In this document: in pieces, positions 31,770-39,400 of the stretch
How positions within the stretch are numbered: position 1 is the stretch's first letter
How the letters are laid out: each line of letters starts with the position of its first letter
NCBI GenBank assembly: GCA_027596075.1
Contig: JADGJC010000011.1
Span: forward strand, 200,941 to 264,940
Length of the DNA stretch: 64,000 nt
DNA from: Rhizophlyctis rosea
Taxonomy: Eukaryota; Chytridiomycota; Chytridiomycetes; Rhizophlyctidales; Rhizophlyctidaceae
Direction of reading: 5' to 3'
Made by a program: the position numbers and the translations under genes
Notes under the pieces: generated by a model
What the model was told of the DNA's origin: nothing
The model's database searches: none
The model's input: the letters and a program-made list of their open reading frames with translations, nothing else

Positions 31770-34235
31770 ATGGCAGCTTTACCTCATCCCACTCACGGAG
31801 GCTTGACCACCTCCTCCATACACCGAAGCTCCCACTACGAAGATTCGTTACTCAATTCCCCATTCTACTTTGCAAATCCAGAAGAGCCCCTTCCACCGCC
31901 ATCGTCGGCATCGCACGCTCCACCTCCAACTTCCTCATCATCTTCTTCAGTGATACCCGGTGGAGCGCCCGGAGGCGTCGCACCGAATCTGATCTTCAAA
32001 CGTGAAGCGCTGGACGCATCCCACACATCCGCCACGGAAGGCGGTTGCGACAGACACGCACATCAGTTCTCGCAGCATTCGCAGTCTCACAACCATTACA
32101 ATCATTACGGTCATCAACATAACCATAACTCGTCACATCACAACAACTCACACCACCATCACGGGCACCATCAGCATCAGAAAGCGACGTCCCAGCAACC
32201 TCCTCACTACTCCTCGGTATTTGAGCAAACGAATTCTGGCACGCCCAGCGCACCGATTTTCAGGGGACAGGCACCACAGGAATTTGGCGCGATGTACAGC
32301 CCAACAATGGGTGAGTCTCACGGATCTTCTGCATTGCAATTCTCCGGAGAGCCCGCCTCTTGTTTACAACGCAATGCGCACGGAATTCACATGTAAATAA
32401 ACCATCATCTCAGAAAATATGTCAGGACTGACCGTGTTATACGACTCCATCATCTACTACGCGACTGATGCGAAAAACAGCTTCTCACAAGGCGCAGAGC
32501 AAGAGGCCTTCGAGCGACTGGAACAGATTGTCAGGACGATCTCCGTTTTGCGAGACTTCAAAAACAAATGTGATATGGTATGTTTGGTGAATATGAAAGC
32601 GGATTTCCATTTCATCCGTAGCTGACTTGGTGCCACAGGCTGCTACTCGAAGCAGCTCACTACCGCACTCATTGCCGCAACTTACACCTGTACCTGAAGC
32701 ACCGATCGAAGAAGGCAAAAGCAGGGTACGCGTTATAATAACATGATTTCGCTGCCATTGACCTCGTGTGCTGATTTAATGACATTCTACAGAAACGTGC
32801 ACGAACCGTGAAGGAAGAAGGAGCAACTCAAAGTAGACGTCACAGCATCGTCAATCCCACGTCCCCCATCAATACAGACCTACCACCTGAACCGTCACAA
32901 CTATCACCCTTTGACGATGAAGGACCGGGACCGGGATTGCTCTTACCGATGTGGACGATCGACCCAGAACTATGCGCTCAATTGGACGAGGTGTTCTTCG
33001 CGTTCCTCGCAAAAGTCTGTTCGGATCTGGAAATCACGGATGAACAAGGAGAGAAAATGTAAGTGACATAAAATCCCAAAAGCACTTTTTCGGTCTTCTA
33101 CATTTTATCTGACCGGAACATTTGCATCTAACATCCATTACCCCACCCATTCCAGCCACCAAACCCTCATCGCCCGCAAAATGTCCAAAATAACCGAGAG
33201 CCCCGAATTCCACCCCTTCAAGTTCCGCATCCGCTCCTTCACCAACGCCTTCCGGTCCGAGCTCTACCGCTCCGGCTTCACCGAAGAAATGATCCCCGAA
33301 CGCAAGGTCAAGCAATACCTATGGCAGCAGCGCTACATTTCTCGATTCAACGAGGACGGGAGGAAAGCTAAGAGTAAAGGGAGTCATGTTTGGGTGGTGG
33401 AGGCAAGGAAGACTGCAGATGGCGGGTGGATTTTTAAGGAGTTTGAGAGACGGATTACGGGGAATGAGCCGAATCCTGTTGCGTATGTTGGGGTGAAGTA
33501 TGTTTATGAGCCGAAGGTTTATGATCCGCAGATTAAGAGTGAGTAGGGAGCTGTTTTGTTTTTGGCGTGCTGAAGTTGCGCGCTGTGCTGCATGAGTACA
33601 ATCTTTCAAGTATGGCTAATCCACAATGCCGCACCTATCCATATGTGTTCTCAGGTCCGAAAGTCGTGTTCCACTCTCCATGGCTTCCAAACTGGTTACG
33701 CTGGGAAGACAACATCCTCGCGGGCATCCCCCTCCCAGACGCCAAGAACTGCTCCATAACCGTCGTGGCAAGCTACTTCCACGGAGAAACAAGTGAGTTC
33801 CCAATCCTTCTTTTCGCCCCACACTCTGCCCCCTTTCCTCACCGACTAACAAACCACAACAGGCTTCCGCCTCGAAAAAACCTTTTTCCTAACAATCACG
33901 ACCCTCCCCCCACCCAACAACACCCACCACCCACTCGACCAGGACATCGACGACCACCGTCGACGCAAGAGCGAAGATATGGGGAACGGAGGAGGACCAC
34001 CTGGAAGTGTGGGTGGTAATGCGGCTGCGCAGGCTGTGAGTATGTATGCTGCGGCTTCGGCGGCAGCGGCGGGAGGAGGTCCGGGGAGGTATCCGCCTTA
34101 TGGGCCGGTTGGGAGTGTTCGTCATGGTGGGTTGGTGAGTAGTTGGGGTTTGGCGTGTTGAGCACTGTTGAGTCGAATGAGCAAGGCATATTGACTGTTG
34201 CCCTGCTCTTTTGCCCTTAGGTCGGCCATCACTGA
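31770..34235 (+). CDS. Conserved fungal protein, eight exons, His-rich N-terminus
   Basis: Eight exons join in phase from the ATG at 31770 to the stop at 34233-34235: splice points follow TMG, CDM, KSR, GEK-I, IKS, ETS and GGL. The N-terminal 190 residues are low-complexity with His/Asn runs (HSQSHNHYNHYGHQHNHN). A helical segment follows (GLTVLYDSIIYYATDAKNSF, then EAFERLEQIVRTISVL). The well-ordered core is WTIDPELCAQLDEVFFAF, HPFKFRIRSFTNAFRSELY, ERKVKQYLWQQRYISRFNED, KSKGSHVWVVEARKTADGGW, AYVGVKYVYEPKVYDPQI, SPWLPNWLRWEDNILAGIPL and SFRLEKTFFLTIT. The core has the density of Trp, Tyr and charged residues of a conserved fungal domain and I believe related proteins occur across fungi, but I cannot name the family with confidence. 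The C-terminus is Gly/Ala-rich. A nuclear regulatory role is a guess. Confidence 0.7.
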
Positions 34236-34925
34236 CCTAACCGACGGCCAAAGGAAGTCCAGCGGAAACGGAAACACGAAAGAACAAGTAAATGATACCC
34301 TTGAGCGTAACGACATCAAGATACCAATTTCTTTTCTCTTTTTCTCATCCAACCACCCCTTTTCGCTTTGTGCGGCATTTGGGACACTGCTTTCCCTCTA
34401 TTCTTGTTCTCTAGTTTGCTATTTTGATACCCCTAATGCCCCATTTCGGATGTGCTTGTTTGTTGGGCTCTGGGGACTTGTACATAAAAGAGTTTTTCTT
34501 ACATATCTTATGCTGATATTGGTGCTTATTGTGTTGTCGGATGTATGACCCAGAGTGATTCATGCTGCTATTAGCATATCATGTACCGCGCAATGTGCCT
34601 TTGCTTTCAATTGACATTGTGATTGATGGATACATAGAAATAAGGATGTGTACAATGGGGAGGGATATCACATGAGGACTAATCTATTGTCTTGCGAGTC
34701 CTCGTCGACTTCCTTGATCCCCTAATGAAAGGGGACAAGGAAAGGGGAAGCGGTTAGTAGCTGGATGGGCAGGATAGTGACGTGTGTCACTGCCCAACTG
34801 CTACCTACACATCCCCATTAACGAAGACGCAAGCAATCAACACCTACCTCCGAAGAACCTTGAGGGGGCAGCGTAGCTATGGGGAAGAAGAAATCAAACG
34901 GGTTAGAAGTCCCTACCTTAGCCGT
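34236..34925. other. 3' flank and hairpin-rich leader of the repeat array
   Basis: 34236-34650 is the 3' flank of the preceding gene. From 34715 simple hairpins begin: CCCCTAATGAAAGGGG at about 34720, and a longer one at 34754-34804 in which GTAGC pairs with GCTAC and inside it GGGCA and GTGAC pair with GTCAC and TGCCC. A 12-base word CTTGAGGGGGCA lies at 34859-34870 and recurs at 35793-35804 on the other side of the array. Confidence 0.4.
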
Positions 34926-35690
34926 CCCACACTGGCGGGAGGGAAGATATAGCGACGTTGGCGAACGTCACTTACTCCAAAAAGGAGTATAACCAGCGCT
35001 ACCCGTAGGTCGTCGCGACATGGTACCACCCCTTTGAACCGCCGCACAGGTTGGGTGTTCTTGCCGGTCTTGCACAACGAGCCGGGAGGGGTGGGCATAG
35101 CGATGCCAGAGACATCACTCACCCCAAAAAGGAGTGTGACCAGCGACCATCCCCGCGAATGGAGATGCGCCGACTGGTGCCACCCCTTCAACCGCCGGAC
35201 AGGTTGGTCGTTCTTGCCGAGTCTTGCACAACGAGTCGGGAAGGCAGGGCGTGGAGATCCGTCGGCATTCCAAAAAGGAAGGATAACCAGCGACCGTCAC
35301 CCGGCGGTGACGCATCGACTGGTGCCACCCCTTGTAACCGCCGAGCGGGTTGGTCAAGTCTTGCCGGGCCTTGCACAACAAGGCGGGAAGGGCGGGCAAA
35401 GCAAACGTTCGCACACTACCACTGAACGTTTGCCCATTCCAAAAAGGAATGTAACCAGCGACCGTCACCCGGTGGTGACGCATCGACTGGTGCCGCCCTT
35501 GAACCACCGCACAGGTTGGTCGACGGAACTTGCACAACCAGACGAGAAGGGAGGGCGTAGCGAAACGTTCGCACACTACCACTGAACGTTTGCTCATTCC
35601 AAATAAGAATGTAACCAGCGGCCACCTCCCGGCGGAGGTGAACCGACTGGTGCCACCCCTGCAACGTACAGGTTGGTCGCCCGTTATCGC
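34926..35690. repeat. Tandem array of five ~150-bp units with conserved hairpins
   Basis: Units begin at about 34929, 35082, 35236, 35383 and 35542 and are 147-159 bp long. Each carries, in order: a variable hairpin A; hairpin B closing an A-rich loop (CATTCC-AAAAA-GGAATG in unit 4, TACTCC-AAAAA-GGAGTA in unit 1); ACCAG ... CTGGT enclosing hairpin C (CGTCACC-CGGT-GGTGACG in unit 4, CACCTCC-CGGC-GGAGGTG in unit 5); CACCCCTTGAACCGCCGC-like sequence; GGTTGG; and TTGCACAAC at the end. Stem sequences differ between units while pairing is kept, which points to selection on structure in RNA or in cruciform DNA. Frames through it (for example plus 35034-35585) are simply translations of the repeat. 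I know of no named element like it. Confidence 0.75.
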
Positions 35691-36416
35691 CGCCGCTCGG
35701 TCCGCCGTATCGCCCCGTTCGCTCCTTGGGTCGTGGGTCTTGGATATCCCATGAGAGACATGGTGAGATCGGTACACCCGCTTGATAGCCAGCTTGAGGG
35801 GGCAAACTCACCGAAAGCCGACAGGGAAGGCAACGTGCCACTTGTGTGTTTGCCGATAACCGCAGGAGTCGAAACCGAAGGTGAAGGCATTGGACGTGCA
35901 GGCGAAGTTGGTGTTGAGGTCGGTGGGGGAAGTGTGGGAAAGAAGAGGAGGGAAGTTGTGAGAAGACCTTCGCCATCTCCTCTGTCCCACCTTGAGAATT
36001 CATGGCGACATGAATTTACGTAATCTCTATGACTGTGCCAAGCGGCTTGCTCACCGTGCCTGATACTAGTATGACTGTGCCGGGGTCATTTACGTAAAAA
36101 GTCTCAATGCGTTCAAAGGGATGAGTAGTGTTCCCATGGACCATGATGGCTGATGATTGTTTCAATGAATTTTGTCTGTTGATGCTGGCTTTGTGAATAC
36201 CTCAACTGCTAAATGAATAAGCGTATCATTATCTGTTAGCATTCAACAACCAATATGATATCCCCCAGAAGCACGAAAGGAGCGCCCCAATCGTCATGCT
36301 GTCAACACTTGAATTCTAATATTCAATACACATACACAAAAAAGCACAGAAAGACACAGAAAAGGGGACCTAAACAAAACACAGAAAACAAAACTGCTGC
36401 CCACCAAAACATTTCA
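35691..36416. other. Right flank of the array
   Basis: Contains the second CTTGAGGGGGCA word (35793-35804). A plus-strand frame 35673-36023 has no recognisable content. 36240-36416 is the A-rich 3' flank of VPS35. Confidence 0.35.
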
Positions 36417-39400
36417 TCACCGCCCTCCAACCTCAACCTCTCCCCACCTGCCCCCAACATCCTTGAAGGCATCACTCCCATACTCCCCCCTTTCCCCACC
36501 AGTACCCCCACCCCTCTCCTCAACCTTCCTCATCTCAACATACTTGACAACATTCCTAAAATGCTTTACCACTTCCGCCGCAACCGGCTTGCCCCTGCCC
36601 GCCTTGCTCGCTGCCCCGCTCAGCACGTCATCATCAAACAGAGAAGCGGTGGACGCGGTAGGGGATAGAATCCCTGCGGGACGGAAGGCGTGCGGAATGA
36701 GGTTTGTTGAAGAGGTTTGGGAATCCGTGGAGGATGGAAGGGGAATGGTGTCGGAGGTGGAGAGGTTGGTTTGAACTAGTTCGATGAGATTGTTGAGGTA
36801 TTTTACAGCAATCTGGGTGAATGTATGACGTCAGTAAGTAATCTTTCTACGCTTGCTGTTTTTTTTGCAGATCAAGGAGCGAATTGCAAACCCACCGCAT
36901 CATTCCTCCTCTCGAAAAACCAAACATATCTCTCCAAAATCTCTACAAAAAGCTCCACATTTACACTCCGATCCATTACACTATCCGCGACCTTCAACGC
37001 CTTCTGCAAACACTCCAACACTTTCCCGCCTTCCCTATACCCCGTCTTCCCCTCCGCCTTCGCCTTACTCTCCGACGCGTCACCCCCCCAGAACAAATGA
37101 CTGCACAACATGATCCCACGACATTGGTCGACACGCTTGAGAAGTCGAGAACAGTGTACAGCGCACTTCGTTACAAGAGTTTCGTAGTTTTCATATCCGA
37201 AGACGCTAGTGGTGAGAAGTGTGCCAATGATTAGCGTGATGGCGGCGAGTTGGGCTTTGGATTCGGAGATGGAGTCTTCGTAGATTGTGAAGGCCTGGAA
37301 GGTGGGAAGACGGGCATTGTTTGTACCTCTGCCCGCTATACACGCTTCGGCTGTCCGGAGCATACCTGCACAAAGAACTCATACGCAACCTCCTCGAAGC
37401 CCGCCTCATCCGCAGCCTGCGCTGCCACCAAGAACAACCGCAAAGCCATATCCGGCGGACTCATCAACCCATGTCCAATCTTACTAGTGTTCGTCGGCGC
37501 AGGGTTATCCTCCTTGAACACCGGTCCGGACTCGTCATCGTCGGCAAAGTGCTCCCTTGCACGACCGAGTGACGAGACCGTCTGGTGACTGAAGGTGAAG
37601 AGCGATTGCAACTTTGTGGGCGTTGCCTCGTCCTCTTCGTACCGAGCGCGGTACTTTCGCGCCAATTTAACGGACGCAACGACGAGAGGTGGGAGGGTGA
37701 AACGGATGCGGATGTCTCCGCCTTCACCGAAGTGTTTTCTTGCCGTTGATAGGAGCTGGGAGGAAGAGGTTTCAGCATCCAAGCCAGTGTTGGACGATAC
37801 TCCCTCGTATATGTCGCATCTCATAAGCACTCACCATAAATTCCTTATCCACATCCCCATCCGCACTCCTTACCAAATGCACCAGCTTGGCCACCAAATT
37901 CTGTTCCTCAACAACATCCTCCCAATCCAGCGGGAGCTCCTCCACCCTCACAGTTCTCGGAGCATATTTCGGCTGCGCGGGCTCGTTGGGATCTGCCTGG
38001 ACGGGTTTCGGCCCAAACAACCCACCATCCTTTTGATCCCGAACCATAACACTGCAGAGCTCCCCAAAGATCGCGTTCACGCCATCAGGTGTCGAGATGA
38101 GGAACTTCGAATTCGAGAAGGCCCGGAGGCAAGTGGATGCGATTTGATGTGCTACTTGGCGGCGCGTGGAGTATGGCTGAAGGAAAAGAAGGTCGGCATA
38201 GTTACCGGCAAGGGACTGGGACACGTTCGGATTTTGGTTTGCCGTGTCGGCGGGGTGCTGAGTGACGCTGGAGGGGAAATTTAGCAGCGTGAGGATGTTG
38301 GTGTTGAAAGCAGAAACTGGGCCAAGGAGCAGCTGAAGGAATGAGGAGATTGTTGAAGGATGACGCAGTTCCGCCCTGAATATTCCAATATTGTGGGTTA
38401 TTGGACATCGATCGCGAAATTCGCTGAACACTCTAACGAACTTACGCCTTGGCGGCTCGTGCTTCCAAAAGTCGCTCCTTTGCAAACCCAAATACATTGT
38501 CTAGATTGTCCAGGCGGTCCGGATAGCAGTTCAATGACAGATTCGCCAGCGACACGAGCAAAGCTACGACGTCTTGGATAGTGAACTCCGGTCGAGCCTA
38601 CGCAACATGTCAACGCAAAGAACAGCCTTCGACAATTTCGATACCAAAACGTACCTTGACCAACTCAGTGATCTGCCCCCAAAACACGTCAAACAACTGC
38701 ACGTCCTCCGGAATGCCACTCGCCGGCTTGGCGTCGTCCGCACCGGCTAGCCAAAATCAAAGTCAATCTTGGAGCATTTCAGTGCTGATGACCAAAAACA
38801 TTGCAAACATACCAGCAGCAGCACTCTCATCTCTGGCTCTCGCGGCATAGTTTGCGAACCGGTCAACTAAACTGATGACGATTTGCTTCACATTTACATT
38901 GCGTTGCAATTGTGCTGTGGCCGAGAGGAACGAGTCCAATGATCGGAGATGGAAATCATCGTGAAAGACCTATCGAATCAATCAAGACATTATGATTCAA
39001 TAAGCATGTCATACTCGCGGCTCTATTATGAATCTCTTACCTGAATGATCACTTCCATCAAATACTCTTGCGCAATTACATCCTTGCAACTGACAATCTC
39101 CTCCAAAATGCTCGGTAGGACCATCTGCATGCCCACAGAAATGGTGAGCCACACCATTCCCGAATCCTCCCTCCTCGAACAAAACCCGTCCGCCTTCAAC
39201 TCACAGATTGATACATATTCAGATCCAGATCCTCCAATTGACTCAACCTGACCAAATTGCTCCCTACGAGCAACCGAAGTTCCTTCCTCTCTTGCTCCCG
39301 CTTCTCCCTCTCCCGCGAATGCCCCTGGTGCTGCAAACGAACCCAAAGTTTGTTCATCTCAATGAAATTCTGCAAGATGAATTGTATGGAGTCGTGAATC

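Follow-up and report, generated by a model that had tools for sequence, protein, structure and literature searches.

NORAD, the closest working parallel for the locus examined here, is described as a noncoding RNA with 12 units of ~300 nt that apparently derive from tandem duplication and in which protein sites recur along with stem-loops and a short run of U-rich sequence (PMC4947167). Among fungal RNAs, the long noncoding RNA meiRNA (sme2) of fission yeast is reported as a decoy for the RNA-binding protein Mmi1 (PMC4077057), and published screens have found covarying structured-RNA candidates in fungal intergenic regions and introns (PMC5640933, PMC8216456). The array described here resembles NORAD in being a (putative) noncoding RNA of diverged, apparently tandem-duplicated units, but its units are half as long as those described for NORAD and close into a four-way junction, and no homology is claimed (PMC4947167). 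Similarly, meiRNA, as reported, is a fungal decoy RNA resembling the role proposed for the array, and is not claimed as a relative (PMC4077057). No word beginning with tandem, repeat, or VPS35 occurs in the main texts of the two screens (PMC5640933, PMC8216456), which sets the array apart from their candidates at the level of the main text. The array itself comprises five head-to-tail, diverged units of ~150 bases at positions 34937–35661 of the window, i.e., the whole 64,000-nt stretch of the Rhizophlyctis rosea genome analyzed here, which belongs to a 44.1-Mb assembly. The repeats of meiRNA are short linear motifs, as opposed to the folded domains predicted here. In our judgement, tandem, separately folding RNA domains with internal covariation in one locus seem to be rare.

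Successive units are spaced by 147, 147, 168, and 160 bp, and each carries one CCAGCG anchor (at 34993, 35140, 35287, 35455, and 35615). Together with covariance model matches (Table 1), these spacings and anchors bear out the five tandem ~150-bp units recognized in an earlier, sequence-only reading of this DNA; Tandem Repeats Finder picks up only part of the array (35266–35660, period 160, 2.4 copies). The right neighbor is VPS35, encoded on the minus strand and recognized from one of its exons (Pfam Vps35, E 1.6e-46), with an apparent stop at 36417, as read from open frames. On the left, open frames outline a multi-exon plus-strand gene at 31770–34230, with its end placed near 34230; it contains a conserved-looking stretch, KFRIRSFTNAFRSELYRSGF, and a single exon piece of this gene had no match in Pfam. 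With VPS35 on the minus strand to the right and a plus-strand gene ending on the left, the array probably sits between the 3′ ends of two convergent genes.

Table 1 Coordinates of the array, its component stems and linkers, and associated putative features, numbered along the window.
Feature	Position	Strand	Remarks
Unit 5 (first on minus strand), four-way junction P1-C-B-A	35545..35661	−	cmsearch 104.6 bits; own minimum-energy fold a cloverleaf, z −5.67
Unit 4, four-way junction, P1 8/8 Watson-Crick	35386..35501	−	107.1 bits; z −7.20
Unit 3, hairpin C intact, B weak, A lost	35239..35333	−	76.3 bits; z −2.31
Unit 2, four-way junction	35085..35188	−	99.8 bits; z −6.27
Unit 1, C and P1 degenerate, B and A intact	34937..35034	−	66.3 bits; z −2.85
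Linker, units 5/4, contains GTTGTGCAAG	35522..35544	−	
Linker, units 4/3, contains GTTGTGCAAG	35356..35385	−	
Linker, units 3/2, contains GTTGTGCAAG	35209..35238	−	
Linker, units 2/1, contains GTTGTGCAAG	35056..35084	−	
Hairpin C, unit 4	35454..35491	−	homologues 35614-35651, 35286-35323, 35139-35178; pattern matches; two-sided change in 5/15 pairs
Hairpin B, unit 4, CATTCC-TTTTT-GGAATG	35435..35451	−	homologues 35595-35611, 35266-35282, 35120-35136, 34973-34989; two-sided change in 2/6 pairs
Hairpin A, unit 4	35401..35433	−	homologues in units 5, 2, 1; none in unit 3
Putative 935-nt intron around whole array, GTGAGT to CTAAC...CCCCATAG	34877..35811	−	consensus match only
Possible 3′ terminal structured domain downstream of array	34690..34833	−	mostly inside putative 126-nt intron 34847-34722

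Read on the minus strand, an intact unit is predicted to form a four-way junction, or cloverleaf, in which a closing stem (P1) surrounds hairpins C, B, and A. The sequence-only reading had identified the three hairpins and overlooked P1, the fourth stem that closes the cloverleaf; it had also taken the array in the plus-strand direction, in place of which the minus strand is now favored, as detailed below. In minimum-energy folding, four of the five units (1, 2, 4, and 5) each form a four-way junction alone, and for units 5, 4, and 2 the cloverleaf is obtained alike by hand reading, from the covariance model, and in single-sequence folding, with single-unit z-scores between −5.7 and −7.2. The minimum-energy fold of unit 3 (z −2.31) instead places hairpin C inside a shifted closing stem and leaves hairpin B unformed. 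Nine sliding 150-nt windows (starts 34925–35525) gave minus-strand z-scores from −6.2 to +1.0, two of them at −5 or below, and since most of these windows were unremarkable, the fold signal depends on phase with the units.

P1 is 8 bp long (AAGGGCGG/CCGCCCTT in unit 4, AGGGGTGG/CCACCCCT in unit 2), and the 15 bp of hairpin C are divided among ACCAG/CTGGT, a middle block of 3 bp, and an inner block of 7 bp. The alternative stems CGTCACC/GGTGACG and CACCTCC/GGAGGTG of hairpin C are present as first described. Attributing the ACCAG...CTGGT frame to all five units was an overstatement, as in unit 1 ACCA/TGGT surrounds a degenerate inner part, and the CCAT/ATGG stem given for unit 2 was an incomplete account of a hairpin C composed of a 7-bp stem and two further blocks of 3 and 5 bp, which on the minus strand includes two G-U pairs. 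Hairpin B consists of 6 bp closing a TTTTT loop (TATTT in unit 5), and hairpin A of about 7 to 11 bp; the stems and compensatory changes originally listed for both were recovered, although hairpin A, ascribed to every unit, is found in units 1, 2, 4, and 5 and is absent from unit 3. We conclude that the array is genuine and makes a well-supported candidate for a structured RNA of unusual repeated-domain design, with putative expression and function.

The stems of these tandem units, four of five of which share a common fold, covary. In a MAFFT alignment with the structure taken from unit 4 (alignment A2), 88.0% of 175 cells were paired and 13 cells were two-sided, with none of 500 shuffles as high, and the count of further pair types was reached in 35 of 500 shuffles. 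In an alignment fitted to the covariance model (A4), 89.5% of 171 cells were paired and two-sided change affected 12 pairs and 17 cells, each a level seen in 0 of 500 shuffles, while the count of further pair types was reached in 4 of 500; shifting the partner by 1–3 columns lowered the paired fraction from 89.5% to 36.5–55.3%. Because shuffling ignores kinship, we also simulated 3000 alignments along a FastTree tree that started from a paired root; each column retained its parsimony count of changes, and these changes were placed independently. None of the 3000 reached the observed paired cells (mean 74.7%, maximum 86.5 vs. 89.5 observed), two-sided cells (mean 3.45, maximum 11 vs. 17), or two-sided pairs (mean 3.17, maximum 10 vs. 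12). With neither shuffles nor tree simulations attaining the paired fraction or the two-sided changes, the initial proposal of a structured RNA array with compensatory changes is upheld.

A gapless comparison of the stems against unit 4 covered 105 cells, including 79 unchanged, 14 compensatory (one of them a G-U), 7 with a one-sided G-U, none with a one-sided A-C, 2 otherwise unpaired by one-sided change, and 3 in which both sides had changed and no pair formed (Fisher P 6e-12, for cells that are not independent). Excluded from this count were hairpin A and the linkers, the outermost P1 pair, and, in hairpin C of unit 1, one outer pair together with the middle and inner blocks. The outermost P1 pair does not form in unit 4 and carries both A-C cells of the wider table considered below. 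Five paralogues within a single genome supply all of this covariation, and sequence sharing among these is mosaic, units 3 and 4 having almost the same hairpin C and units 4 and 5 almost the same hairpin A, which breaks the independence of the covariation evidence. Sources other than RNA structure can also give covariation (PMC11234323); the coding example in that report concerns positions inside one codon, and the pattern in the array differs from it. Overall, we consider it highly probable that the array is a structured RNA under selection.

Template switching can copy the complement of one arm of a palindrome into the other, thereby mimicking compensation. The stems might hence be palindromes without RNA function whose arms template switching or cruciform-linked repair keeps matched in the DNA, and the plus strand indeed folds in a likewise unusual manner, with a consensus folding z of −7.2 that is nearly as unusual as the −7.8 of the minus strand. 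However, a strand-blind process of this type should yield G-U and A-C mispairs equally, whereas the one-sided changes counted above on the minus strand (7 G-U, 0 A-C, and 2 others) depart from parity, and the gapless stems contain 8 G-U and 0 A-C in total. With hairpin A, the linkers, and the outermost P1 pair added, a wider, hand-made table counts 180 Watson-Crick, 11 G-U, 2 A-C, and 7 other cells (P 0.022 for G-U vs. A-C), and the mispairs of alignment A4 are 15 G-U and 3 A-C. This argument, which one of the fungal screens applied to the strand of the SART-1 motif (PMC5640933), is weakened by base composition, which by itself already favors G-U: simulated alignments held on average 15.8 G-U against 11.8 A-C, and in 307 of 3000 runs (~10%) G-U exceeded A-C by at least the observed margin. 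The observed number of A-C mispairs is nevertheless low, since 2994 of the 3000 runs contained at least three.

Conservation outside the stems also speaks against matched palindromes, as the U5 loop is identical in four of five units and the linker motif in four of four linkers while the stems vary, and the two strands of P1 lie ~80–100 nt apart and form no local palindrome. When units were folded singly, the minus-strand z was below the plus-strand z in all five, the difference being about 0.5 in four; with linkers included in the folding, the minus strand was more stable in four of the five, unit 3 being the exception. A minus-strand RNA is thus favored over a DNA palindrome, which we regard as unlikely, with moderate confidence in the strand from these sequence comparisons; the same G-U bias and conserved loop and linker sequences disfavor the cruciform-forming DNA element raised in the sequence-only reading. 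Given a structured RNA under selection, we judge it very probable that the minus strand is the relevant one.

Evidence that each domain of this minus-strand RNA folds independently comes from P1, which differs on both sides at two pairs between units 4 and 2. All 8 bases of the P1 5′ strand of unit 4 form Watson-Crick pairs with the 3′ strand of the same unit, against 4–6 with those of the other units. Units 1, 2, 3, and 5 have the same eight bases in the corresponding 5′ strand, for which the 3′ strand of unit 2 is the best partner, so that only units 2 and 4 are informative on P1 autonomy. Within their own units, 5/8, 5/8, and 6/8 positions of P1 are Watson-Crick paired in units 1, 3, and 5, plus 2, 1, and 1 G-U pairs, respectively; units 1 and 3 are partly decayed. 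Between units, GTTGTGCAAG is identical in all four linkers, which also have CNCGNCTNGTTGTGCAAG in common. The linker motif is absent from the stretch after unit 1, and TTGTGCAA has one further occurrence in the window, on the opposite strand. A potential linker hairpin has one closing pair changed on both sides between two linkers, yet showed no thermodynamic stability alone in any of the four (z −1.2 to +1.1), and the linker was therefore treated as conserved sequence.

Full pairing of the P1 5′ strand of unit 4 within its own unit only, alongside recurring linkers with an invariant motif, would also fit a cluster of separate small RNAs, in which each ~100-nt cloverleaf is cut at the linkers and acts alone in a snoRNA- or tRNA-like fashion. 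The loss of a hairpin in unit 3 and the decay of unit 1 argue against this interpretation, as does the lack of any Rfam family or tRNA at any unit (although an unlisted snoRNA would be missed), and we consider such a cluster improbable. Across the window, none of 4227 Rfam 15 families reached its gathering threshold, in agreement with the initial impression that no described family fits. The best sub-threshold match over 34200–36400 was Lambda_thermo on the minus strand, at hairpin C of unit 3, with 21 bits against 50 (E 0.12), and ARAGORN found no tRNA gene in the window. Hairpin ribozymes share ACCAG/CUGGU and a four-way junction with the units; this candidate was rejected, with no ribozyme among the four Rfam matches listed at E up to 5, and the self-processing RNA array suggested previously found no backing in an Rfam family match. 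No tandem four-way-junction RNA in fungi was found described in the literature, as far as the sources consulted extend, which is not proof of absence. The drift of the unit sequences, most of which can still adopt one shape, points to a previously unlisted candidate structured RNA, with no Rfam 15 family at threshold.

The array also appears to be a single locus. The whole array, used as a DNA query against the 44-Mb genome, matched one locus, namely itself. Among five patterns searched in the same genome, ACCAGTCG-gap-CGCTGGT had six matches, corresponding to four units and two loci elsewhere (reversed control 1); a pattern for hairpin B, allowing as many as 3 mismatches, had two, both within the array; the linker patterns had 3 and 2, all within the array (controls 0 and 1); and a loose C-B pattern had nine, in three units and six loci elsewhere (controls 3). 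The covariance model that the sequence-only reading had suggested as a check was built from the five units, so that its 66.3–107.1-bit matches to them are by construction; over the window it returned precisely these units and nothing further, while the eight pattern loci outside the array gave no match at E up to 1. Applied to a further 101,101 bases of the genome (11 of 12 stretches, one of 41 bases being left out), it produced one match, taken as chance (12.4 bits, E 1.1). In viral contigs, a loose hairpin-C pattern matched at least 120 stretches, with no covariance model match among the 80 loci listed. One DNA query and five patterns, which could miss diverged copies, therefore revealed no convincing second copy in the genome, contrary to the multi-copy noncoding RNA first envisaged. 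A dispersed repeat or introner-like element was rejected on this same single-locus result and with the same proviso.

A 12-bp direct repeat, CTTGAGGGGGCA, lies on either side of the array (34859–34870 and 35793–35804), beside putative splice sites, and could be a duplication scar or chance. Such flanking repeats, together with units that are unequal and partly decayed, might be expected of a functionless relic of a satellite or transposon end, but covariation would be unexpected in a relic and the genome searches offered no second copy, making this origin very improbable. A protein-coding repeat was likewise rejected: some of the unit spacings are not divisible by three, the open frames, as we read them, change register from unit 5 to unit 4, and codon-usage scores of the array are negative in all six frames, compared to +0.17 and +0.22 for two VPS35 stretches that were scored in their true frames and belonged to the training set.

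The surroundings of the array would allow another role for its fold. On the minus strand, GTGAGT from 35811 and a CTAAC to ATAG stretch at 34906–34877 would place the whole array inside an intron, in which folding could shorten the effective distance between splice sites, or from which intronic small RNAs could be released. A second putative intron of 126 nt follows (GTAGGT from 34847, CTAAC to TTAG at 34757–34722), and the two would be mutually consistent; their YTAAC-to-YAG sites, with pyrimidine-rich tracts, are the sole two on the minus strand of 34600–36200, against a density of 0.34 per kb on the minus strand of the window. Two such sites in 1.6 kb are however only mildly above the 0.5 expected, GTRNGT hexamers are common (1.94 per kb, with six in 34600–36200), and at these frequencies the splice-like signals are near chance. 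Codon-usage scores of the would-be exons show no clear preference for any frame. Three translated pieces, one from an upstream open frame and two from alternative frames of the stretch that follows, were joined into a 156-aa composite query of candidate frames; none of 210 candidates was a homologue at E up to 1, a result that is uninformative if the database is fungus-poor. An intron whose fold serves splicing or the release of small RNAs is, in our view, possible but doubtful.

We propose that the locus encodes a minus-strand noncoding RNA, either free-standing or intron-borne, made of five tandem, independently folding domains. Each domain would comprise an 8-bp P1 around hairpins C (15 bp), B (6 bp, mostly with a U5 loop), and A, and would be joined to the next by a linker with the invariant GUUGUGCAAG. 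The domains may have been born by tandem duplication, seemingly swap sequence with one another, and would be kept by selection for base pairing. The repeated domain could act as a docking module, such that one transcript, if produced, would display several copies of one binding surface, formed by the U5 loop and the GUUGUGCAAG linker, to one RNA-binding protein, and would thereby serve as a multivalent scaffold or decoy. We assign a probability of about 0.3 to this full reading of a minus-strand, five-domain noncoding RNA acting as a multivalent docking array: its first two steps, structure under selection and the minus strand, are each highly probable, while multivalent docking, given both, falls somewhat short of even odds, and the three multiply to 0.29. 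We tentatively extend this proposal to a new RNA family, defined by a single transcript with five tandem four-way-junction domains and invariant GUUGUGCAAG linkers, which would either function as a multivalent scaffold or be the precursor from which ~100-nt cloverleaf RNAs are cut. With its five paralogues within a single genome the array furnishes its own comparative evidence and, if expressed, would provide a testable model of how multi-domain RNAs evolve by duplication and of what a repeated folded module recruits.

Transcription by Pol III is unlikely for this array, since the hairpin B loop on the minus strand is TTTTT in units 1 to 4. Downstream of the array, the minus strand of 34690–34850 is predicted to fold into two long hairpins under an outer stem (−73.3 kcal/mol, z −6.10), and this possible terminal domain may belong to the same transcript. 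Upstream on the minus strand, 36016–36097 contains a pair of TTACGTAA palindromes at a distance of 74 bp and a pair of TATGACTGTGCC repeats at a distance of 42 bp, both found nowhere else in the window; this region may act as the promoter of a minus-strand transcript or belong to a short open frame, MVHGNTTHPFERIETFYVNDPGTVILVSGTVSKPLGTVIEIT. A near-palindrome, ATTCATGGCGACATGAAT, at 35998–36015 adjoins one of the TTACGTAA sites.
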